Part shown: piece after piece, positions 3,259 to 37,406 of the stretch
Position numbering within the stretch: position 1 is the first letter of the stretch
How the letters are laid out: the number at the start of each line of letters is the position of its first letter
NCBI GenBank assembly: GCA_028286725.1
Contig: JAQBQZ010000010.1
Location: forward strand, 1-38,803
Direction: 5' to 3'
Origin: Candidatus Tayloriibacteriota bacterium
Lineage (GTDB): Bacteria > Patescibacteriota > Minisyncoccia > Phycocordibacterales > CAIRYW01
Length of the DNA: 38,803 nt
Notes under the pieces: model-generated
Told to the model about the DNA's origin: nothing
The model's input: the letters and a program-made list of their open reading frames with translations, nothing else
Databases searched by the model: none
Position numbers and translations under genes: made by a program

Positions 3259-3487
3259 CCCTCTAAAGTTTTATCTATCGTTATGCAATTTGAGTATGTC
3301 TTTCTAAATTAAATGAAGTATTTTATTTATATGCCGTCTCAAAATATTACTAAACCGTTTAAAATTGCATAACAAAAAGTTGATACAGCTTTTATTTTAA
3401 GATTTCTTAGGTGCCTAGTATGAACATGATTTATGTGATATATATAGCACTATGAATCAACTTTTTAATAGATAAAATTTTCTAGGG
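3259..3487 (+). mobile_element. GIY-YIG-associated structured element, copy 1 (ORF decayed)
   Basis: TIR CCCTCTAAAGTTTTATCTAT / ATAGATAAAATTTTCTAGGG (17/20), helices GTTATGCAATTT(3280-3291)/AAATTGCATAAC(3362-3373) and AAAAAGTTGAT(3374-3384)/ATCAACTTTTT(3456-3466). Same ends as copies at 11692 and 28383. Residual reading MQFEYVFLN* ... NQLFNR*. Confidence 0.8.
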
Positions 3488-8362: not shown

Positions 8363-8370
8363 AGGCTAAA

Positions 8371-8402
8371 AATAAGCCGCACCCAAAGAGTGCGGCTTAT
8401 TT
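8371..8402. terminator. Bidirectional terminator between convergent genes
   Basis: AATAAGCCGCAC...GTGCGGCTTATT with A/T tracts. Confidence 0.85.
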
Positions 8403-8414
8403 TTTAATTTAGAA

Positions 8415-11691: not shown

Positions 11692-11982
11692 CCCTCTAAA
11701 GTTTTATCTATCGTTATGCAATATGTCTATATTTTACAGAGTAAAAAAGACTTAGATTTATATATCGGATGTACAGGAGATATCAAGTCACGCCTTATAT
11801 TGCATAACAAGAAAAAAGTTGAATCGACAAAGAGTCGTACACCCCTTATACTAATTCACTATGAAGCATACCTTGATCCTGAGGATGCGTTTATGCGTGA
11901 GAAGTACCTAAAAACGCAATGGGGTAGAAAGTTTATAAACAAAAACCTCTCCAACTTTTTTAATAGATAAAATTTTCTAGGG
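11692..11982 (+). mobile_element. GIY-YIG-associated structured element, copy 2 (ORF intact)
   Basis: TIR CCCTCTAAAGTTTTATCTAT(11692-11711)/ATAGATAAAATTTTCTAGGG(11963-11982); helices GTTATGCAATAT(11713-11724)/ATATTGCATAAC(11797-11808) and AAAAAGTTG/CAACTTTTT; encloses the GIY-YIG ORF. Confidence 0.85.
11716..11970 (+). CDS. Small GIY-YIG endonuclease-domain protein
   Basis: MQYVYILQSKKDLDLYIGCTGDIKSRLILHN...EAYLDPEDAFMREKYLKTQWGRKFIN; start and stop lie within the element's helices. Confidence 0.88.
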   Translation: MQYVYILQSKKDLDLYIGCTGDIKSRLILHNKKKVESTKSRTPLILIHYEAYLDPEDAFMREKYLKTQWGRKFINKNLSNFFNR

Positions 11983-11985
11983 TAA

Positions 11986-13584
11986 ATGCTTACAATACTC
12001 AAAAATTCGAACGAAGAATCAATACGACAGATTGACGAGGAGAAAAAAATTCGGAATACGAATGAGTTATTCATTCTTTTTGCGCTCGGCAGCCAGTTTG
12101 ATCATCTCATAAAGCTTGCCTTTGAAAAACTTGGGGTATTTTGTCTTGTGGCAGATCCACGGTCTGTGACTAGTGATGATATTAAAAAAATTAATCCAAC
12201 AGGAATAATTCTTTCTGGAGGTCCAGCCTCTGTGTATGATGAAGGTGTGCCGTTCGATACAAAGATCTTTGATCTAGGAATTCCAACACTTGGTGTTTGT
12301 CTCGGGTTTCAATTATGGGCTCATTATATTGGAGCGAAAGTTTTGGGTGCCAACAAAAGAGAATTCGGTGTGCATACGCTCCATATCCAAAACAACGATT
12401 CGCTCTTTAAAGGATTTGGAAATACAACGAGGGTGCTTGAAAGCCACGGGGATAGAATTGAACCTTATGAGAAATTCGAAGTATTGGGAACTACAGATGA
12501 TGCGCCGATCTCTGCTGGAAAATATAAACATCTCTATGGTGTGCAGTTTCATCCGGAAACAACTGAGAGTGAAAATGGAATAAAGATATTTGAGAATTTT
12601 TGCTTTGAGATCTGTAAAGCGGTGGATAGGTTTCCTGCGGAGAACATTGCAGAGAAAAAAATAAAAGAAATAAAAGAAATTGTGGGGGATAAAAAAGTGC
12701 TGATCGCGCTTTCGGGAGGATGTGATTCTTCGGTGGTAGCAGGACTTATCCGTAACGCGTTGGGAGAAATGAGTGGGCGTGTAATGGCAATATATATAAA
12801 AGGAATTGACAGGCCTGATGATGAAAAGACTGTAATGGACAATTTTGGAAATGAATCGTGGCTCCAAGTAAAGATAATTGATGCTACGAACCAATTCCTT
12901 GAGGTACTCAAAGGAAAGGTTACAATGCCAGAAAAAAGATTGGCGATGAGAGAGGTGTATAAGGAAGTTTTGGAACAAGAGATAAAAGAATTTGATGCAT
13001 CATTTATTGCACAAGGAACTCTCTATACCGATCTCTCAGAAAGTGGAGTGGGACACGACGGTGCAAGACGAGCGCAGATCAAGCTTCATCACAATACAAA
13101 TCTTCAATTTTCTGTTCCAGAATTAATGCCTCTCGCTGATTGTGTCAAAGATGGGGCAAGAGATATTGGAAGAGCGATCGGAGTCAAAGAGGAGCTCCTT
13201 GTTCGGCATCCATTTCCAGGCCCTGGGCTTGTTGTTCGAATTGAAGGGGAGGTTACAAAAGAAAATTTAGTTATCGCACGGCAAATTGATGGTATCTATG
13301 TTGAAGAACTTCGAAAAGCGAAATTATATGAAACAGTCTGGCAGGCTGGGGCAGTTGTGACTAATTCGATGATTACTTGTACTAAAGGTGATGATGCGTC
13401 GCAAGGTGTTGTAGTGGCGCTTTGGGCTGTATGGAGTGTAAATGGATTTACTGCACAATTTGCAGAATTGCCTTATGAATTTTTACGCAAAGTTTCTCAA
13501 AGAATTACAAACGAAGTTCGAGCGGTAGGTGCGGTTACATACCGTATTTCAGATAAGCCTCCGTCTACTATAGAGTGGGGGTAA
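11986..13584 (+). CDS. guaA: GMP synthase (glutamine-hydrolysing)
   Basis: GATase GGPASVYDE, GVCLGFQLWAHYIG, QFHPE; PP-loop ALSGGCDSSVVAGLI; C-terminal PHFPGPGL-like HPFPGPGLVVRIEGEV and KPPSTIEWG. Confidence 0.94.
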   Translation: MLTILKNSNEESIRQIDEEKKIRNTNELFILFALGSQFDHLIKLAFEKLGVFCLVADPRSVTSDDIKKINPTGIILSGGPASVYDEGVPFDTKIFDLGIPTLGVCLGFQLWAHYIGAKVLGANKREFGVHTLHIQNNDSLFKGFGNTTRVLESHGDRIEPYEKFEVLGTTDDAPISAGKYKHLYGVQFHPETTESENGIKIFENFCFEICKAVDRFPAENIAEKKIKEIKEIVGDKKVLIALSGGCDSSVVAGLIRNALGEMSGRVMAIYIKGIDRPDDEKTVMDNFGNESWLQVKIIDATNQFLEVLKGKVTMPEKRLAMREVYKEVLEQEIKEFDASFIAQGTLYTDLSESGVGHDGARRAQIKLHHNTNLQFSVPELMPLADCVKDGARDIGRAIGVKEELLVRHPFPGPGLVVRIEGEVTKENLVIARQIDGIYVEELRKAKLYETVWQAGAVVTNSMITCTKGDDASQGVVVALWAVWSVNGFTAQFAELPYEFLRKVSQRITNEVRAVGAVTYRISDKPPSTIEWG

Positions 13585-24764: not shown

Positions 24765-24805
24765 AATAAAAAGAGCCGCACCCAAAGGGTGCGGCTCTTT
24801 TTATT
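24765..24805. terminator. Bidirectional terminator
   Basis: AATAAAAAGAGCCGCACCC-AAA-GGGTGCGGCTCTTTTTATT. Confidence 0.88.
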
Positions 24806-26459
24806 AATTCTTTTTCTTAATGTATTTCTTTATATCTTCAAATGTTCCACCTACTTTCTTTCCAGGATTGAATATGTTTTGAGGGTCAAAAATTTGTTTG
24901 GTCTTTTCAAAGACTTCTACCATTTTTTCTCCATACATCTGCTTTAAATACGGTGTTCGAATGATTCCATCATTGTGTTCTGCGGTGATCGATCCATGAT
25001 ATTCATGCACGAGATCATATACCTTTTTAGAAAGCTCGAGGATCGTGTCAGAAGAGAAAGGGGAGTCGAGATCCATAAGCGGAATGATATGGAAGTTGCC
25101 GTTACCTGCATGTCCTGCGATTGTATAGGTGAGTTTGTACGCATCAATCAGCGCTTTGACCTTCGGAAGGAACTCTGGAAGATATTCTGGTTTTACGATG
25201 ATGTCGTCGATGAATGGTGCGGTTCTTTGGTTATGTACATGCTTTCGGAGCATATTAAAACTTTCACGACGGATTCTCCAGTATTTATCTGCTTCACCTT
25301 CATCTTTTGCAATATGCATTTTATAGCCAAAATGTCTTATTTTTTCTTGTATTGTGATGAGCCTGTCTTTGACATCTTTCTGATCTTGACCTGTGACTTC
25401 AACAAGAAGGATAAGTTTCGGTACGCCTCTTGTGATTATCATCATCGCCTCAGGAATAAATTTAAATCCAAGCTTTATTGCTCCCCAAAATCCAAGAGAT
25501 TTGAAGAAATCAAAGAAGAACTTTACTGCTAATTCCATACTGTAGTCATCGTATGTTTCGAGGCTATCTGGCTTGAAAGGGAGTATCTCGTTTACGATGT
25601 TGCTGAGCTGTGTAATATCCGGCATAAATACCGCAAGAAGGTTTGCATATGGCTCAACTGGAACAAGCTTCCAAGTAATCTCCGTCACGATCCCAAGTGT
25701 TCCTTGGCTTCCACAAATAAGCTGACAGAGATCAAATCCTTCGTGGTCATCAACAACGTTCCAGAGATAATATCCGGCTGAGTTTTTAGAAACAGCAGGT
25801 TTTGCTTCGAAGATCTCTTTTCTATGTTCGAGTATAAGATCGTAAAGCTGTTTGTACATTCGGCCTTCAAAGGAATTTTCAACTGTCTTTTGCATAAGTT
25901 CGATATGCGTAAGCGGCTTTATCTCGTATTCATTACCATCGATGAAAACCACTTTGAGTTTTTCGATAAAATTTTCCACCTTTCCGTATTTGATCGCTTT
26001 TTCTCCACCTGAGTTGTTGGCTATCATTCCTCCAACTGCGCAGATCTCTTTTGAGGCGGTATATGCGGGCATAATTCGTCCCTTGGCGAGAGTCGCTTTC
26101 TCCATGTCGCGGTAGAAACACCCAGGTTCTACTATTGCACGTACAAGATCCACGGCAATGATCCGATTCATGTATTTTGTAAAATCGAGAATGATCGAAT
26201 TGTTGATCGAGCCGCCTGACATATCTGTTCCTGCACTTCGAGCAGTGATAGAAAGAGTTGGATCAGTCTCTTTATGTTCGTTTACATATTTGATAATTGC
26301 TTTCACATCCTCGGTATCTTTTGGAAAGATCACAAGAGTTGGTCTTATTTCAAAAAGACTTGCATCGTTTGATCGAGCTTGAAGCATCTCATCAGTTTGA
26401 TCCACATCGCCTTTAATAATTGATTTTATTTCGTCTATTTGTGTTTGATTCATTCCCAA
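24804..26459 (-). CDS. FAD-linked oxidase (GlcD / D-lactate dehydrogenase-like)
   Basis: SITARSAGTDMSGGSINNSIILDFTKYMN, GGMIANNSGGEKAIKYG, GSQGTLGIVTEI, HAGNGNFHIIPLMD, EHNDGIIRTPYL. Confidence 0.9.
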   Translation of the reverse strand: MGMNQTQIDEIKSIIKGDVDQTDEMLQARSNDASLFEIRPTLVIFPKDTEDVKAIIKYVNEHKETDPTLSITARSAGTDMSGGSINNSIILDFTKYMNRIIAVDLVRAIVEPGCFYRDMEKATLAKGRIMPAYTASKEICAVGGMIANNSGGEKAIKYGKVENFIEKLKVVFIDGNEYEIKPLTHIELMQKTVENSFEGRMYKQLYDLILEHRKEIFEAKPAVSKNSAGYYLWNVVDDHEGFDLCQLICGSQGTLGIVTEITWKLVPVEPYANLLAVFMPDITQLSNIVNEILPFKPDSLETYDDYSMELAVKFFFDFFKSLGFWGAIKLGFKFIPEAMMIITRGVPKLILLVEVTGQDQKDVKDRLITIQEKIRHFGYKMHIAKDEGEADKYWRIRRESFNMLRKHVHNQRTAPFIDDIIVKPEYLPEFLPKVKALIDAYKLTYTIAGHAGNGNFHIIPLMDLDSPFSSDTILELSKKVYDLVHEYHGSITAEHNDGIIRTPYLKQMYGEKMVEVFEKTKQIFDPQNIFNPGKKVGGTFEDIKKYIKKKN

Positions 26460-28382: not shown

Positions 28383-28607
28383 TCCTCTAAAGTTTTACCT
28401 ATCGTTATGCAATATGGGTTTAACTAAATGCTATCTAAAGTGCTTTAATTAGGTCTACTGTGTAAACTTGGGTCAAGAAGATGAATATTGCATAACAAAA
28501 AGTCGGTTAAAACAGTCTATCGTACACAAAAGATCCTTATATTATTCATATTTAAGATAAGGTATAATATTAATAACCGACTTTTTAATAGGTAAAATTT
28601 TCTAGGA
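28383..28607 (+). mobile_element. GIY-YIG-associated structured element, copy 3 (no intact ORF)
   Basis: TIR TCCTCTAAAGTTTTACCTAT(28383-28402)/ATAGGTAAAATTTTCTAGGA(28588-28607); GTTATGCAATAT(28404-28415)/ATATTGCATAAC(28485-28496); AAAAAGTCGGTTA(28497-28509)/TAACCGACTTTTT(28574-28586). Confidence 0.82.
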
Positions 28608-29542: not shown

Positions 29543-31651
29543 ATGAAATATATAAAAGTATTCAAAGAATTGGGACGAGGTGATGCAAACATTGCTGGAG
29601 GTAAAGGTGCGTCCTTAGGGGAAATGGCTAATGTAGGCATACCAGTGCCTCCGGGATTTGTAGTACTTTCAGATGCCTTCGAATACTTCATTCGTGAGAC
29701 GGATATTATTTCGGAAATCGAAGCAACTCTCAAAAAAGTAAATCATAAAGAAATGGAATCTGTAGAACGAGCGTCTCAAGTCATTCGAGATATCATTGAA
29801 AATGCTTCGATGCCAAAGACTTTAGAGAAAGAAATATTTGATGCATATAAAACATTAAACGCAGAATGGGTGGCTGTAAGAAGTAGTGCGACTGCAGAAG
29901 ATGGTGCAGAACATGCGTGGGCGGGGCAGCTCGATAGTTTTTTGAATACTAAAAAGACAGATCTCATTCAAAATGTTCAGCGCTGTTTCGCATCGCTTTT
30001 TACTCCTCGGGCAATATTTTATAGATTTGAAAAAGGTCTCCATAATGCACATATATCTGTTGCAGTTGTAATACAGAAAATGGTTCAAAGTGAAAAAAGT
30101 GGTATAGCATTCTCAGTTCATCCTGTGACCGAAGATCACAACCAAATGATTATTGAAGGATCGTGGGGGCTTGGAGAAGCGATTGTATCAGGACAAGTGA
30201 CTCCAGACTCATATGTTGTGACCAAAAAACCAAAAGAAATTTTGGATACAAATATTGCAGAAAAATCTCGAGGCTTGTTTAAATCAAAGACTGGATCAAA
30301 TGAATGGAAAGAGATTGAGAATAAAAAAGCGAATGAACAATGTCTATCGGGTAAAGAAATATTAGAACTTGGAGATCTGGTATTAGAAATCGAAAACCAT
30401 TATGGATTCCCATGTGATATTGAGTGGGCGTATGAAAATAAAAAGTTTTATATTGTACAGAGTCGACCTATTACTACATTAAGTTCTAAGCCGATTGATA
30501 GTGCTCCCCTGAAGGAGATTCAAAAAACACTGAAAACAAAAGCAGAATACCATTTTCATTTTAAAGCATCGACGTTTCCTTTTGTAGTAACTGAGTTCTG
30601 TTGGACTGGAAACAAAAGCTATGGACAATTTGAGTATCTTCTTTTTCAAGAAGGGGATTTAATGACCGGATACTGTTCTTCAAAAGGCGTTGAAGAACAG
30701 TATAATTATGGAAAGAAAACTTATTTTAATCCAGAGAGAATGGGAAAAGCCTTCGTGCAGATGGATAAGCTTGATCTTGAAATGAGAAAGTTTTTAATTA
30801 AACCTATCATGAAAGAAAAAGATTGGGGTGTTTTTTATAAAGAGGCAAGAAAAATATTCATAGATTTTGGTAAGATTTATTTTTTGATGGAACCTATGGC
30901 GCTTGAATCTCTTGCAAAAGCTGTTGAAAGTTTGTGTGAACGAGATGGTTTATCACAAGATCAGGTTTTACATGATGTTAGTATCGCCAAAAAATTCTCT
31001 TCAAGTGAAAAGTATCTTGTAAAACTTCTTATTAAGCTTGGACACAAAAAGTTTATTCTTCATGAACATATTGAACCTATCCTCCGGGAGCTTTTTTATA
31101 TGTTTCACTTTATCTCTGAATCAAAGAGTTTGCCTCTATCTGAAGTTGTGATGATGAATGATAATGATATCCAGGAGTTTTTTAAAACTAATAAAATAAA
31201 TAAAAAAATTTTGAAAGATCGAACTGGCGGGTTGGTCATCTTGTCCAAAAAGAATACAAACCTTAAGATTTTGAAAGGCGAGATGTATAAAAAATGGAAA
31301 AATAAAATCGAGCCACAATTTAAGGGTGAGATAAAAGGGATAACTGCCTATAGGGGTTGTGTTACAGGTAAGGCAACAATAAATTTGAGCTGGATAGATA
31401 CAGTTGAAGTTCCAAAGGGAAATATTTTGATAGCAGGCATGACTAGTCCGCAAATGGTTCCGTTTCTCCAAGGTGCTGTGGCACTTGTGACAGATGAAGG
31501 CGGGCTAACATGCCATGCGGCTATAATTGCCCGCGAGATGAAAATTCCTTGTATTGTTGGTACCAAAGTGGCTACGAGGGCTATAAAAGACGGTGATCTT
31601 ATTGAAGTGGATGCGGACAAGGGAACGGTGAAAATTATAAAAAATAAATAA
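29543..31651 (+). CDS. PEP synthase/rifampin-phosphotransferase-like protein: PPDK-N ATP-grasp + middle domain + C-terminal His swivel, no PEP/pyruvate TIM barrel
   Basis: AGGKGASLGEMANVGIPVPPGFVV, AVRSSATAEDGAEHAWAGQLDSFLN, GIAFSVHPVTEDHNQMIIEGSWGLGEAIVSGQVTPDSYVV, YIVQSRPITTL, DEGGLTCHAAIIAREMKIPCIVGT. Confidence 0.9.
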   Translation: MKYIKVFKELGRGDANIAGGKGASLGEMANVGIPVPPGFVVLSDAFEYFIRETDIISEIEATLKKVNHKEMESVERASQVIRDIIENASMPKTLEKEIFDAYKTLNAEWVAVRSSATAEDGAEHAWAGQLDSFLNTKKTDLIQNVQRCFASLFTPRAIFYRFEKGLHNAHISVAVVIQKMVQSEKSGIAFSVHPVTEDHNQMIIEGSWGLGEAIVSGQVTPDSYVVTKKPKEILDTNIAEKSRGLFKSKTGSNEWKEIENKKANEQCLSGKEILELGDLVLEIENHYGFPCDIEWAYENKKFYIVQSRPITTLSSKPIDSAPLKEIQKTLKTKAEYHFHFKASTFPFVVTEFCWTGNKSYGQFEYLLFQEGDLMTGYCSSKGVEEQYNYGKKTYFNPERMGKAFVQMDKLDLEMRKFLIKPIMKEKDWGVFYKEARKIFIDFGKIYFLMEPMALESLAKAVESLCERDGLSQDQVLHDVSIAKKFSSSEKYLVKLLIKLGHKKFILHEHIEPILRELFYMFHFISESKSLPLSEVVMMNDNDIQEFFKTNKINKKILKDRTGGLVILSKKNTNLKILKGEMYKKWKNKIEPQFKGEIKGITAYRGCVTGKATINLSWIDTVEVPKGNILIAGMTSPQMVPFLQGAVALVTDEGGLTCHAAIIAREMKIPCIVGTKVATRAIKDGDLIEVDADKGTVKIIKNK

Positions 31652-31653
31652 TT

Positions 31654-32631
31654 ATGTACTACAAAGCATACACAAGAGATACGGGACTTATTATTCAGCA
31701 GGCGTGGATCTTTGGATTTGAAACATTGTATAAAAAGCTAAAGGGTCAGAAGTCTGCGTATCCAATGGTTATCGATTTTGTGAGTGAGGGAACTATTGAG
31801 ATATGGCAGCATAAGGAATTAGAAGAGGAACTTTCTCTACTCATTCTTGATAAAAATAAGAATGATGTAAATTTTTTCAATAAAAATCTTGATACATATA
31901 TTAGCGAGCTTCCTTATTATGAGAAATTTTGGAAACAAAAACACGCGGACTCTTCTCAGGAATTGAAAGAATTTGTCAAAAAACTTAATAAGCAAGTCGA
32001 AAGATATATTCTCTATTATTTCACTCTTCTCAATAAAAAAAGTCCAAAAAAACTTATTGATATTGCGACTGAATTTAGAAAGACTGATGAATTTTGGGCT
32101 AAGACATCAAAATTTTTGAGGAACTCACTTATACATCTGTACCCAGAGACAAAAGGATATGAGGATACTGTTTTGCAAAAAGAGGTAAGCAAGATTCCTA
32201 TAAAAGAAATATTAGAAAATAGAAAAAAAGGTTTTGTCGTCTTGAAGAACGGGAATTTTATTGGCAAGTATGATGATTTGCCATACCAATTTGAAACTTT
32301 TAAAACGAATACAGAGATAATAAAGGGAAGATCGGCTTTTCTTGGTAAAGTTCAAGGAGAAGTATTTATTCTCAAAAGTATTGCAAATTCAAGCAAAATT
32401 AAGGAAGGTCAAATTTTGGTTTCACCAATGACTACTCCTGATATGATGCTGGCTATGCAGAAATGCGGAGCTATAGTCACTGATGAAGGAGGGCTTACTT
32501 GTCATGCGGCAATAGTGGCTCGTGAACTTAAAAAGCCTTGCATCATCGGCACTAAGATCGCAACGAAGGTCTTGAAGGATGGCGATCTCGTGGAGGTAGA
32601 TGCGGAGAAGGGGATTGTAAGAAAAATATAA
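31654..32631 (+). CDS. Stand-alone middle domain + PEP-utilizer His-swivel protein (array member 2)
   Basis: TDEGGLTCHAAIVARELKKPCIIGTKIATKVLKDGDLVEVDAEKGIVRKI; no ATP-grasp. Confidence 0.88.
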   Translation: MYYKAYTRDTGLIIQQAWIFGFETLYKKLKGQKSAYPMVIDFVSEGTIEIWQHKELEEELSLLILDKNKNDVNFFNKNLDTYISELPYYEKFWKQKHADSSQELKEFVKKLNKQVERYILYYFTLLNKKSPKKLIDIATEFRKTDEFWAKTSKFLRNSLIHLYPETKGYEDTVLQKEVSKIPIKEILENRKKGFVVLKNGNFIGKYDDLPYQFETFKTNTEIIKGRSAFLGKVQGEVFILKSIANSSKIKEGQILVSPMTTPDMMLAMQKCGAIVTDEGGLTCHAAIVARELKKPCIIGTKIATKVLKDGDLVEVDAEKGIVRKI

Positions 32632-32640
32632 TTATCTATT

Positions 32641-34137
32641 ATGAAAATTCCAGCAAATATCATAAAAAGAATTGAAGAAAATAAGGATTGGTATAATAAA
32701 AGTTACAGCGGTTATTTTATTGGTATTTGTTTACAAGGGGAAGCGATTGGTGGAGAAGCAAAGGTTAATCCGTATGCAATGAAATATGGTCTTTGTTATA
32801 ACAACTATAAGATCAAGGATCATTTTGATTGGTTTTGGGATAGTGTTGAATTGGTGAAAAAGCGTAGAAAGCTGATTAAGGCGGCGATGCTTGATAGTAG
32901 TCTATCAAAAAAGGCATTGATTATTGGTGAAAAGAATCATGTAAATTTTGTTAAAATTTGCGACGAAATAGCGAAGGGTAAAATTAAGATAATGAACGAT
33001 AGGACGCTTCTTAAGAACATTAAAGATCTCTATTATGGATTGCTCTCAATAAATAACTGGTCTTATGCCGTCGATGTGTTTTTGTCTGATGAACAAGAGG
33101 ATTGGCTCGAAGCATTAATTAAAAAGGAATTAAAAAGTGCTGCGACTGCTGATGTTTTGGCTATGCTCACGCTTCCAACATTTCAGTCTTTTGTGAACCA
33201 GGCTGAGGTATTATTTCTACAGATCGTCTCCTCAATCCAGTGTAATGATTTAACAAAAACAGAAAAGCTGTCCGCTCTATATAGTAAGAGGTATTACTGG
33301 ATTCGATCAAACTATAAGGAATTTAAAAGGGTGGAATCAAGAGATATACTTAATGATGCAAAAAATGAATCAAAAATTTTATCTCCTGATTCTGTAATTT
33401 CTAAAATAAAAAAAGAAAAAGATGCTGTTGTTTTAAATGTCAAAGAAAAGGAATTTTTGTACAAGAAATTAGATATTTCGAAATCATTAAAATCAATGAT
33501 TAGAACATCTGAAGTTATGACACATCTCCAGGATAACAGAAAGGATCGTGTACTTCGAATGAATACATTGTTTTATGAGTTGATAGAAGAGGTCGCAGAA
33601 AGAAAAGCTATTGAATCGCACCTTATTTTTTATTTTACTCCGCGAGAGGTAATATCACTTTTTGAAGGTGAGAAAATTGATATGGATGTAATAGAAAAAA
33701 GATCCAAAGAAGGTGTATTGAGTATCTTTGCTAATGGAACTTACTTCACCATTGATGCGGAGTTATATAAAAAACTTTCATGGGATAAAAATTTTTTTAA
33801 AGATGAGGGCAATGTTACAGAGATTAAAGGGTCTGTGGCATTTCGTGGGATAGTAAGAGGTGTTGTTGAGGTTTTAAGAACTGTTGAGGATATTAAAAAA
33901 TTCAAATCCGGATCAATACTTGTAGCAAATCAAACAACACCTGAATTTGTACCTGCAATGAAAAAGGCGGCCGCAATCATTACAGATCAAGGCGGCATTA
34001 CTTGTCATGCAGCCATTATATCTCGAGAGTTAAAATTACCTGCAGTTATCGGTACAAAAATCGCGACGAAGGTATTGAAAGACGGGGATGTGGTGGAGGT
34101 GGATGCAAATACTGGTGTGGTAAAAATAATTAAATAA
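32641..34137 (+). CDS. His-swivel protein (array member 3)
   Basis: TDQGGITCHAAIISRELKLPAVIGTKIATKVLKDGDVVEVDANTGVVKIIK; divergent N-terminal ~400 aa. Confidence 0.88.
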   Translation: MKIPANIIKRIEENKDWYNKSYSGYFIGICLQGEAIGGEAKVNPYAMKYGLCYNNYKIKDHFDWFWDSVELVKKRRKLIKAAMLDSSLSKKALIIGEKNHVNFVKICDEIAKGKIKIMNDRTLLKNIKDLYYGLLSINNWSYAVDVFLSDEQEDWLEALIKKELKSAATADVLAMLTLPTFQSFVNQAEVLFLQIVSSIQCNDLTKTEKLSALYSKRYYWIRSNYKEFKRVESRDILNDAKNESKILSPDSVISKIKKEKDAVVLNVKEKEFLYKKLDISKSLKSMIRTSEVMTHLQDNRKDRVLRMNTLFYELIEEVAERKAIESHLIFYFTPREVISLFEGEKIDMDVIEKRSKEGVLSIFANGTYFTIDAELYKKLSWDKNFFKDEGNVTEIKGSVAFRGIVRGVVEVLRTVEDIKKFKSGSILVANQTTPEFVPAMKKAAAIITDQGGITCHAAIISRELKLPAVIGTKIATKVLKDGDVVEVDANTGVVKIIK

Positions 34138-34191
34138 AAACCCGCTTCCGTCTTTCGAGGGAAGCAGGTGGGGGGGCGGGATGATTTGATG

Positions 34192-34710
34192 CTACGAAAC
34201 CTCGGTGATGTGGCAGTCTCCAGGTTCGTCACCGATGGTGATTTGGTATGCGGTTGCTGATTTGCCAGCATCCACTGATCCCATTAGTGTCCCGATGAGT
34301 TCACGTCCGGTGACCAAGAGTGCTCCATCTTCAACGCGCTCCCTGAGGAACTTCCAGAGATCAATCCCTGGTGTTCCGTTGAGGCCAATGTAGTTACCCA
34401 GTGGGACCGCTGTTCCATCAGTCAGGAGCACATTCCAACCTGTTTCACCTCTGTCGCCGCTGTCTGCAGATCCCAGGAGAGGGGAATATTTCGGATCGAT
34501 GTTTTGGAGATTTCCATTGCCCGCATCCTGTGCCAAAAGGATTTTGTAGGTGTGGATGAATCGCGCCCCGGTGCCGATGATGATCTGTTTGATCGAATCC
34601 ATGGACAACTTTTTTGCCAGTTGCAGAATTTCATTGACACCTGTTTCGTTGAGGACTGGGTTTGTGCCTGCTGCTTTTTTGCCGTGTGTGACGGCCCATA
34701 TCGTTTTCAT
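34192..34710 (-). CDS. Divergent histidine-phosphatase-superfamily-like protein (RHG box reads THG)
   Basis: MKTIWAVTHGKKAAGTNPVLNETGVNEILQLAKKLS...IIIGTGARFIHTYKILL resembles xxRHGE...LTxxGxxQAxxLAxxL...SSPxxRAxQTA. Confidence 0.55.
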   Translation of the reverse strand: MKTIWAVTHGKKAAGTNPVLNETGVNEILQLAKKLSMDSIKQIIIGTGARFIHTYKILLAQDAGNGNLQNIDPKYSPLLGSADSGDRGETGWNVLLTDGTAVPLGNYIGLNGTPGIDLWKFLRERVEDGALLVTGRELIGTLMGSVDAGKSATAYQITIGDEPGDCHITEVS

Positions 34711-34868
34711 GAGGGTGTGGGGTAGATGTTGTGAGACTTTGGAGTGTGTTGATCGGTAAAAACATGAGGCTTTTTATGCATCAAATTATCGAAGATCAAT
34801 CTTGATGTAAATAATAGCATATTTTATGCATATTGTCAAACATAAAAGAGAATGGTAGTATTGTATAT

Positions 34869-36293
34869 ATGGAGATTTTATATAAAAACAAGAAGTGGAT
34901 TATAGGCGCTAGCCGTAATTGCTCGTTTTTGCAGCAAGTATTATTTTCGGGATATGTACATACAGTTGATTTCGGCGCCCCTCCAATATGTAGAAATGGA
35001 GTTGTGACGATTGATGGTACAAAATCTGATATTACATGGGAAGAAGAGGGGATGGTCCATTTTGCAAATGGCATCGTTGATATGTCTCGTTTCCCAAAGA
35101 AAATTGATAGGCTCGAGAGAAAATACTACCTTTTTGCAAAATCTTTTTTGAAAAGCGTAGAGCTTTTAAATAAAAAAATAACTCCTAAGTCTCTCGATCT
35201 GTTTTTAAAACAGAATGCGCTTTATTCTGGCGGACTTTTTATTACACTGATTATCGGACGAGCTGTGTTTGACGCACTCTATTCTCGGCTTAAAGAATTG
35301 GGCTATGTAGAAATTGACGATATGATCAGTATTTTGTCATATCCTGAAAATCATACTCCACTTGCTGAATCTCGAATAGAACTATATAAAATCGGTGTTA
35401 AGGAATACAAAGAAGAGAAAAAGCTTGATCAGGAGTTATATAAATGGCTTCTGAAATTTCAGCATATCCCTGTAAATTATTGCGAGGATCCTTGGGATCT
35501 CGGTGATGCTCGAAAACAGCTCAAAGAATCTGGAGATAATCCCAAAGATCTATTGAAACAAATGGAGTTGAATCATAAAGAGAGGGTAAAAAATAAAAAG
35601 GCACTGCTTAAAAAGATTAATGATGATGAAGTGTCGAATTTTTCTTATGCACTAGCCAAAGGTACAACCTTAAACGAATTTAGAAAAAATGTGTTTTGCA
35701 AAGTGTCGCTTGAGTATCGCCCAGCATTTCAAAAAATAGGAGAAATGGCTGGTTCTACTGAATGGAGAGATTGTTTTTATTTATTGCCTTCTGAAATTAA
35801 AAAAATAGTTGATGGTAAAAAAGTTGATATAAAGAAAATAAAAGATAATCGTAAGGAGGTCGGAGTAATTTTTAAGAAAAATGGAGAACCTGTCATTCTA
35901 AGTCGTTCAGAACTCGAATTATTTCTAAATGCTAAAAAGGTAATTCCACAAAATAATGCTTTTGATTCGAATCAAATAATAAAAGGGACAGTTGCTAATA
36001 AAGGTAAGGTGACTGGTAAAGTAAAAGTGGTGTCTGGCCGCAGTGAATTTGGCAAATTTGAAAGAGGTGACATTCTTGTTGCAACTATGACGTCAGTAGA
36101 TTTTGTGCCTATTATGGAAATGGCTGCTGCATTTGTCACAAATGAAGGCGGAATCACATCGCACGCTTCAATTGTGGCAAGAGAGATGAATAAGCCTTGT
36201 ATTATCGGTACAAAGATCGCTACTAAAGTCTTGAAGGATGGAGATGTGGTAGAGGTGGATGCGGAGAAGGGAATCATAAGAATAATTAAATAA
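34869..36293 (+). CDS. His-swivel protein (array member 4)
   Basis: TNEGGITSHASIVAREMNKPCIIGTKIATKVLKDGDVVEVDAEKGIIRIIK. Start 34869 (MEILYKNKKW) preferred; track ORF begins 34833. Confidence 0.87.
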   Translation: MEILYKNKKWIIGASRNCSFLQQVLFSGYVHTVDFGAPPICRNGVVTIDGTKSDITWEEEGMVHFANGIVDMSRFPKKIDRLERKYYLFAKSFLKSVELLNKKITPKSLDLFLKQNALYSGGLFITLIIGRAVFDALYSRLKELGYVEIDDMISILSYPENHTPLAESRIELYKIGVKEYKEEKKLDQELYKWLLKFQHIPVNYCEDPWDLGDARKQLKESGDNPKDLLKQMELNHKERVKNKKALLKKINDDEVSNFSYALAKGTTLNEFRKNVFCKVSLEYRPAFQKIGEMAGSTEWRDCFYLLPSEIKKIVDGKKVDIKKIKDNRKEVGVIFKKNGEPVILSRSELELFLNAKKVIPQNNAFDSNQIIKGTVANKGKVTGKVKVVSGRSEFGKFERGDILVATMTSVDFVPIMEMAAAFVTNEGGITSHASIVAREMNKPCIIGTKIATKVLKDGDVVEVDAEKGIIRIIK

Positions 36294-36296
36294 ATT

Positions 36297-37406
36297 ATGT
36301 TTACAAAAAACAAAGCGTTTAATTTTAATATTGATGAATACCAGAGACTTTTTTCTTTTTATGGATATATTCCTTTTATATTTTCATATTGTTTTGCTAA
36401 AAATTATTTAAGATTTGGAGCAATAGCTTTTTCTGATCAAGAAGAATGGTTAAGTTTTGTTTCAAAGAAGAAATTAGGTGCAAGTCTTAAAGAGGGTGTA
36501 ATCATCTATGGTCATAAAAAGAATTATCTTAATTTTTATAAAGGTGTCTATGGAACTATTGATAGTATAAGGTCTTTGACAAGTATGATTCTAAGTTCAG
36601 ATTTTAACAAAAAGACAATAGAAAAATACTTAGGACTGCTCGATAGATTTAGGGATTTATACAGGAAAACAGAGTTTTTCTTTACTGATGATGTTTTTGC
36701 AAATCAAGACAAATATCCTGATTTTAAAGATAATTTCAAAACATTTGAAAAGCTAAAACTTGACGGTAGAAAATTTTTGAATGAATTGTTTTACTCAGAA
36801 AAACCTTTTTTTGTTGATGTGCTAACCGCTGTAGCGAAAAAGAAAAACGTGAATCCGAATAATCTTCTGAGCTATACACTTGATGAGCTCATGGATCTTT
36901 TTAACGGTAATCAAGTGGATCAAAGTACAATTCAAAAAAGAGAACAGGCATACCTATTTTATATTGCTCGTGGAAAAATAAAGATTGCTTGTGGTGAAGA
37001 TGCGAAAGAATTAATTCATAATATTCGTGAGAGTAGAAATAATACCCAAGTTCTTAAAGGGGTAATTGCCTCTCAAGGTAAGGTTGTTGCAAAGGCATAT
37101 GTGATAAAGGTGAGCATGAAGAATCTCTCATCTATCTCTAAGGTGATAGATGAGATGAATCAGGGTGATGTGCTGATCGTGGAAAGCACTGAACCATCTG
37201 TTATACAAGCATGTAAAAAAGCGTCTGCGATTCTCACAAATCAAGGAGGAATGATGTCTCATGCAGCAATTGTGGCGAGAGAATTTAAAATTCCTTGCAT
37301 TGTCGGTTTGGGCAATGCTACAAATCTTATAAATACTGGAGATTTGATTGAAGTGGATGCAAATGCTGGGGTAGTAAAAATAATTAAAAAAGTAGATGAA
37401 AAATAA
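36297..37406 (+). CDS. His-swivel protein (array member 5)
   Basis: TNQGGMMSHAAIVAREFKIPCIVGLGNATNLINTGDLIEVDANAGVVKIIK. Confidence 0.86.
   Translation: MFTKNKAFNFNIDEYQRLFSFYGYIPFIFSYCFAKNYLRFGAIAFSDQEEWLSFVSKKKLGASLKEGVIIYGHKKNYLNFYKGVYGTIDSIRSLTSMILSSDFNKKTIEKYLGLLDRFRDLYRKTEFFFTDDVFANQDKYPDFKDNFKTFEKLKLDGRKFLNELFYSEKPFFVDVLTAVAKKKNVNPNNLLSYTLDELMDLFNGNQVDQSTIQKREQAYLFYIARGKIKIACGEDAKELIHNIRESRNNTQVLKGVIASQGKVVAKAYVIKVSMKNLSSISKVIDEMNQGDVLIVESTEPSVIQACKKASAILTNQGGMMSHAAIVAREFKIPCIVGLGNATNLINTGDLIEVDANAGVVKIIKKVDEK

Follow-up and report, generated by a model that had tools for sequence, protein, structure and literature searches.

Very small GIY-YIG-encoding elements with paired ends at gene starts: a candidate family of mobile elements in Candidate Phyla Radiation genomes

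Introduction

In the stretch of DNA analysed here, a 38,803-nt contig of a Candidatus Tayloriibacteriota bacterium hereafter called the window, guaA is preceded by a compact unit in which a GIY-YIG nuclease gene and an inverted-repeat structure are superimposed. The question raised by this locus is whether the unit is a mobile element spread by its own nuclease, a leader RNA of the host, or a passenger of some other enzyme or process. An earlier sequence-only reading favored the first of these, and the covariation, the empty sites and the like design of homologs from other families described below support an element that is mobile, structured and GIY-YIG-encoding.

Results

Architecture of the unit upstream of guaA

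The unit has exactly the boundaries proposed from the letters alone, with its right end 3 nt from the guaA start as read (Table 1). The 20-nt ends, which had been described as imperfect terminal inverted repeats (TIRs) matching at 17/20 positions, form a helix (P1) of 17 Watson-Crick pairs and one G-U pair, for a total of 18/20, interrupted by a 2x2 internal loop that is conserved. The G-U pair is conserved on the coding strand, and the other strand would have a C-A mismatch at that position. The two internal inverted pairs noted in the same reading were recovered as helices P2 and P3, paired at 12/12 and 10/10 positions respectively. The nuclease ATG was likewise found in the first internal helix and its TAA in the right arm, although the ORF covers 255 of the 291 nt and not the whole unit as had been claimed. 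RNA folding produced a closed three-way junction with a z-score of -6.1 relative to dinucleotide shuffles; the value for the ORF-less copy at 3259-3487 was -4.8. The z-score of -6.1 combined with 14 copies in the genome and covarying helices excludes a chance origin of the unit.

Table 1. Positions of the element copies and their parts in the window.
Feature	Position	Strand	Remarks
ORF-less copy, 229 nt	3259..3487	+	directly after HAD-family gene; methyltransferase start codon 3 nt on
Complete GIY-YIG-encoding copy	11692..11982	+	291 nt; between divergent guaB and guaA
P1 left arm CCCTCTAAAGTTTTATCTAT	11692..11711	+	
P2 5' strand GTTATGCAATAT	11713..11724	+	nuclease ATG inside
GIY-YIG nuclease ORF, 84 aa	11716..11970	+	stop codon within right P1 arm
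P2 3' strand ATATTGCATAAC	11797..11808	+	
P3 5' strand AAAAAAGTTG	11812..11821	+	
P3 3' strand CAACTTTTTT	11952..11961	+	
P1 right arm ATAGATAAAATTTTCTAGGG	11963..11982	+	GIY-YIG stop codon and SD-like AGGG, 3 nt 5' of guaA start
guaA, host gene	11986..13584	+	start codon abutting element
ORF-less copy, 225 nt	28383..28607	+	5 nt before start codon; compensatory changes in P1 (ACCTAT/ATAGGT) and P3 (GTCGGT/ACCGAC)

Copies in the genome and conservation of the structure

The three copies counted in the sequence-only reading are those of the window; the genome (905,920 bases in 14 contigs) contains 14, most of them without the ORF. An intact ORF is present in two, the copy upstream of guaA and that at C12:62572-62862, which are 81% identical at the DNA level. 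The ORF-less copies other than C5b (described below) number 11 and are about 200-232 nt long. Among the copies lacking the ORF, C9b has a ruined left arm and C9a retains a resemblance to coding sequence. In all copies except C5b (13/14) a downstream start codon follows the right end at a distance of 3-5 nt, and the genes behind the 13, named from our own reading of the translations, include guaA, ftsA, ribE, comM, uppP, holA, a helicase, a phospholipase-D-like protein, an MFS protein and a methyltransferase, among others. These positions indicate that the element is placed at start codons. The exceptional copy (L055:3014-3177; G000 C5, about 83212-83375) is located between convergent genes, one of which obtains its stop codon from an arm of the element; the order of P2 and P3 is normal with the arms swapped, such that the interior is inverted relative to the arms as if by recombination between them.

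Conservation of the fold was evaluated in an alignment (A3) of ten copies used without edits; of the four left out, two contain indels, one is truncated at its left end and one is inverted. Across the ten copies 97.8% of cells were paired, and P1, P2 and P3 contained 11 pairs changed on both sides and 24 compensatory cells. None of 500 shuffles reached these pairing and covariation values, and controls with slid partners yielded at most 4 pairs changed on both sides. The stems of the ORF-less copies were 85% identical whereas the loops, with 57% identity versus 56% when shuffled, contained no alignable signal. Since the stems are conserved and the loops are at the shuffled level, it is the structure and not the loop sequence that has been kept, and the results indicate that the structure of the element is under selection.

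Empty sites and mode of insertion

The gene pairs ybeY-ftsA, ribF-ribE, dksA-comM and polA-holA are adjacent, with the element absent, in genomes of the same family or order. Cleaner comparisons came from pairs of sites within single genera, in which rpsO is filled in G229 and empty in G109, hisS is filled in G033 and empty in both G110 and G159, and htpX is filled in G010 and empty in G093. The adjacency of the same genes without the element in relatives, congeners included, identifies the element as an insertion, and comparison of these sites indicates that it is mobile. Empty sites, the absence of which had been named in the sequence-only reading as evidence against mobility, thus exist as orthologous gene pairs without the element. 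The rpsO site of G109 reads GATATGTTTATGGGGCA-ATG, and that of G229 has the same left flank followed by a 303-nt element and the ATG, a comparison showing that the element itself brings the GGAGG ribosome site found at its right end. Elements with an identical right arm are located at different genes in the congeners G010 (htpX) and G093 (dnaX). The glyA site is filled in G041, and in G198 the place of the element is taken by other sequence of about 100 nt. The unit therefore combines complementary ends, defined boundaries, multiple copies and empty sites, the features of an inverted-repeat mobile element. The native spacer is short by about 20-25 nt at the filled hisS and htpX sites and no target-site duplication was seen at the compared filled and empty sites, results indicating that insertion was not a clean transposition. 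The sequence TAAATG was considered as a target and dropped, since several homologs have ACATG, GTG or ATATG and the window contains TAAATG at many other places. An inverted-repeat insert of another kind, TCCCGTTAGAGGT...ACCTCTAACGGG, occupies the polA-holA junction of G002 (L127, C74) and stops precisely at the ATG of holA.

The nuclease and its distribution

The 84-aa product matches the Pfam GIY-YIG domain (PF01541, E 2.4e-11), and Y3, Y5, Y16, R26, H30 and E62 are invariant in 13 homologs, which places it in the GIY-YIG nuclease superfamily defined by catalytic Tyr, Tyr, Arg, His and Glu residues. The two intact copies of the genome have a dN/dS of 0.14 (dS ~1.06), indicating purifying selection on the nuclease. 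Searches of PHROGs and PADLOC identified no phage-protein or defence-system family, and no homolog was found in phage and plasmid collections. UPF0213-type GIY-YIG proteins (PDB 1ZG2) have the domain in common and match weakly in sequence (E 0.008); we know of none that is a mobile-element protein.

A homolog with E<1e-8 is encoded in 156 of the 297 genomes of the order. The closest, 75% identical in protein sequence, is from G010 of another family, and homologs within the element's own family are at most 51-55% identical; the comparison indicates that the element has spread between families. Named homologs belong to Taylorbacteria, Zambryskibacteria, Portnoybacteria, Staskawiczbacteria, Uhrbacteria, Roizmanbacteria, Omnitrophota and others. 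Outside this genome, the 13 nearest homologs are encoded within elements with complementary ends of differing sequence, both flanks being readable in 12 of them (the sequence upstream in G210 is N), and their stop codons lie inside or beside the right arm. Homologous genes devoid of TIRs and helices had been proposed as grounds for rejecting the element; the homologs do have complementary ends. In most of these closest homologs a host start codon follows 0-17 nt downstream (rpsO, cysS, ileS, recA, mutM, glyA and others).

The association of the nuclease gene with terminal repeats was evaluated more broadly against shuffles and control ORFs, a control with mismatched ends having been dropped as too strict within one family. 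Terminal inverted repeats with z>3 were present at 85 of 136 distinct GIY-YIG loci versus 6 of 166 control ORFs from the same loci; about 38% of the sampled GIY-YIG loci (n = 136) have no clear terminal repeats. A same-strand ORF starts between -6 and +40 nt from the nuclease stop codon at 54 of the 85 repeat-bearing loci, compared with 4/85 in a mirror control and 7/51 at loci without clear repeats. The end sequences form several groups, assigned by eye, for example CCCGTTAGAG, ACCCTGTTAAAT and CCGCACACTAAC.

Other GIY-YIG genes, at L089, L090, L095, L247 and L262, end at or near the 5' end of a tRNA gene. The stop codon at L089 is at 1737 with tRNA-Thr from 1738, and L095 has an upstream partial copy of the 5' part of the tRNA. 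A related nuclease gene at L091 has its own hairpin at each end and not arms that pair end to end.

Comparison with described systems

The only ORF of the element encodes GIY-YIG and not the DDE transposase of a classical insertion sequence, and the target-site duplication of such a sequence was absent from the sites compared. The likeness to HEARO/IscB and IS200/IS605 elements proposed in the sequence-only reading holds as an analogy, but not as an assignment: a search for the HUH Y1 transposase (PF01797) returned no match in the 14-copy genome (G000) or in G033, the protein is neither IscB nor TnpB, and Rfam scans gave no above-threshold match that could represent an omega RNA. Hairpin ends, multiple copies, ORF-less derivatives and possibly single-strand recognition are in common with REPIN/RAYT and IS200/IS605 systems, from which the element differs in the fold of its enzyme and in that no flanking tetranucleotide rule was found. 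The Rfam scans also returned no intron match and the location is intergenic, in disagreement with a group I or II intron; the rli40 and Thr_leader matches, to L013 and L014, scored well under the threshold. With no Rfam match above threshold and loops at chance similarity, a riboswitch or known leader RNA is not indicated.

Free-standing GIY-YIG homing endonucleases of the phage T4 Seg type are similarly intergenic single-gene nucleases with empty alleles and horizontal spread. The element described here differs in encoding 84 aa without a separate DNA-binding domain, and in its complementary ends, its many non-allelic sites, its ORF-less copies and its placement at start codons. The mobile DNA of T4 is the subject of a review (PMC2988022). 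Of the described enzymes known to us, the nearest are the Ssn proteins, single-domain GIY-YIG ssDNA nucleases, together with their repeats, the repeated NTS sites in Neisseria. Compared by description only, the two systems have in common a small GIY-YIG protein and dispersed repeats near genes; here, in contrast, the gene lies inside the repeat, whose fold is a three-way junction and for which empty sites exist. GIY-YIG proteins have been reported in insertions of rRNA genes of the Candidate Phyla Radiation (CPR) that match no intron (PMC11270868). Those insertions resemble the element in host group, in the GIY-YIG ORF and in falling outside group I and II introns, and differ in lying inside rRNA genes. 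No description of elements of the present design was found in the literature searched, a search whose reach ended short of the Ssn work; a separate class of element is possible.

Discussion

We consider it reasonably probable that the unit is one of a family of tiny mobile elements for which the sole protein is a single-domain GIY-YIG nuclease acting on the element's own fold, that insertion places the element at start codons, and that ORF-less copies are kept as structured 5' leaders. The transcribed strand is predicted to fold as a three-way junction in which P1 joins the ends and P2 and P3 are internal, with the ORF running through both and stopping in the right arm of P1; this arm supplies the SD-like sequence of the host gene, with which the left arm pairs. 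The nuclease may recognise the ends in their folded form, on single-stranded DNA or on RNA, nick the donor or the target, and in this way drive the mobility of the element. GIY-YIG enzymes hydrolyse DNA and no joining step is known to us, from which it follows that integration needs help from the host; repair or recombination could copy the element in, perhaps during DNA uptake.

Given the location of its stop codon, the nuclease ORF may, when translated, open the right arm for the host gene. Such translation would help to expose the ribosome site and could thereby tie the ORF to an essential gene. Folding of elements from six other genomes agrees with this reading, the unpaired probability rising from 0.32-0.46 to 0.44-0.88, and in the element's own genome the effect of translation on exposure was mixed. 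Old copies may then lose the ORF and stay as structured 5' leaders. The random loops of the ORF-less copies make them look old, for which retention in place is a better fit than active non-autonomous jumping, and such copies seem to be long-standing derivatives that have been kept as leaders. A promoter in the P3 loop that frees the ribosome site in ORF-less copies received no support from folding; the -10-like boxes found in several left flanks and in most ORF-less P3 loops are only suggestive.

The same boxes could be cited for a host cis-regulatory leader RNA that regulates a group of genes from their 5' UTRs, with a GIY-YIG ORF entering two of its copies secondarily, as could the covarying stems, the distance of 3-5 nt to the start codon in 13 of the 14 copies and the pairing of the SD-like sequence with the left arm. 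This account is nonetheless unlikely, as orthologous genes of relatives are without the structure and the closest homologs of other families encode the nuclease within a like fold; moreover, the downstream genes belong to no common pathway, the junction contains no conserved ligand-like sequence, and the residual coding resemblance of C9a makes loss of the ORF the likelier direction. A free-standing homing endonuclease gene, spread only by cutting empty alleles and with ends that are merely expression hairpins, would agree with a single intergenic GIY-YIG gene, with congeners having empty alleles and with spread between families. Homing acts at one allelic site, whereas one genome holds 14 copies at unrelated genes, congeners carry the element at different genes and the complementary ends covary, and we regard this explanation as quite unlikely. 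Distinctly improbable is a non-autonomous element that is moved by an HUH/Y1 transposase, a RAYT or an integrase and carries GIY-YIG as cargo. Structured ends with ORF-less multicopy derivatives do recall REPIN/RAYT and IS200/IS605, and Y1 transposases are encoded in six of eight element-carrying genomes, but the two genomes that gave no Y1 match include the one with 14 copies, GIY-YIG is the only gene common to the diverse end sequences, and the association of its ORF with terminal repeats is family-wide.

Elements like the unit upstream of guaA are found throughout the CPR and appear to form a family of tiny mobile elements that has been overlooked. A broader proposal, advanced more tentatively, is that they represent a distinct class of minimal autonomous elements (about 250-300 nt with one GIY-YIG nuclease) that would recognise their own folded single strand, insert at gene starts (start codons and tRNA 5' ends), persist because the translation of an essential host gene comes to depend on them, and later be domesticated across the CPR as structured 5' leaders. 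If a mobile family is the correct interpretation, a large set of small CPR GIY-YIG genes would be among the smallest protein-coding mobile elements known, and these elements would have remodelled, in minimal genomes, the 5' ends of such essential genes as guaA, ftsA, rpsO, cysS, ileS, recA and glyA. It would also pose a testable question, the spread to new sites by a nuclease without joining activity.

Other features of the window

A strong terminator-like hairpin, GCCGCACCC...GGGTGCGGC, occurs in two nearly identical versions at distant gene ends (8369-8410 and 24768-24809). Positions 29543-37406 encode five tandem proteins (repeat family D1) with differing N-terminal parts and a common C-terminal domain, which we take to be of the PEP-utilising swivel type.
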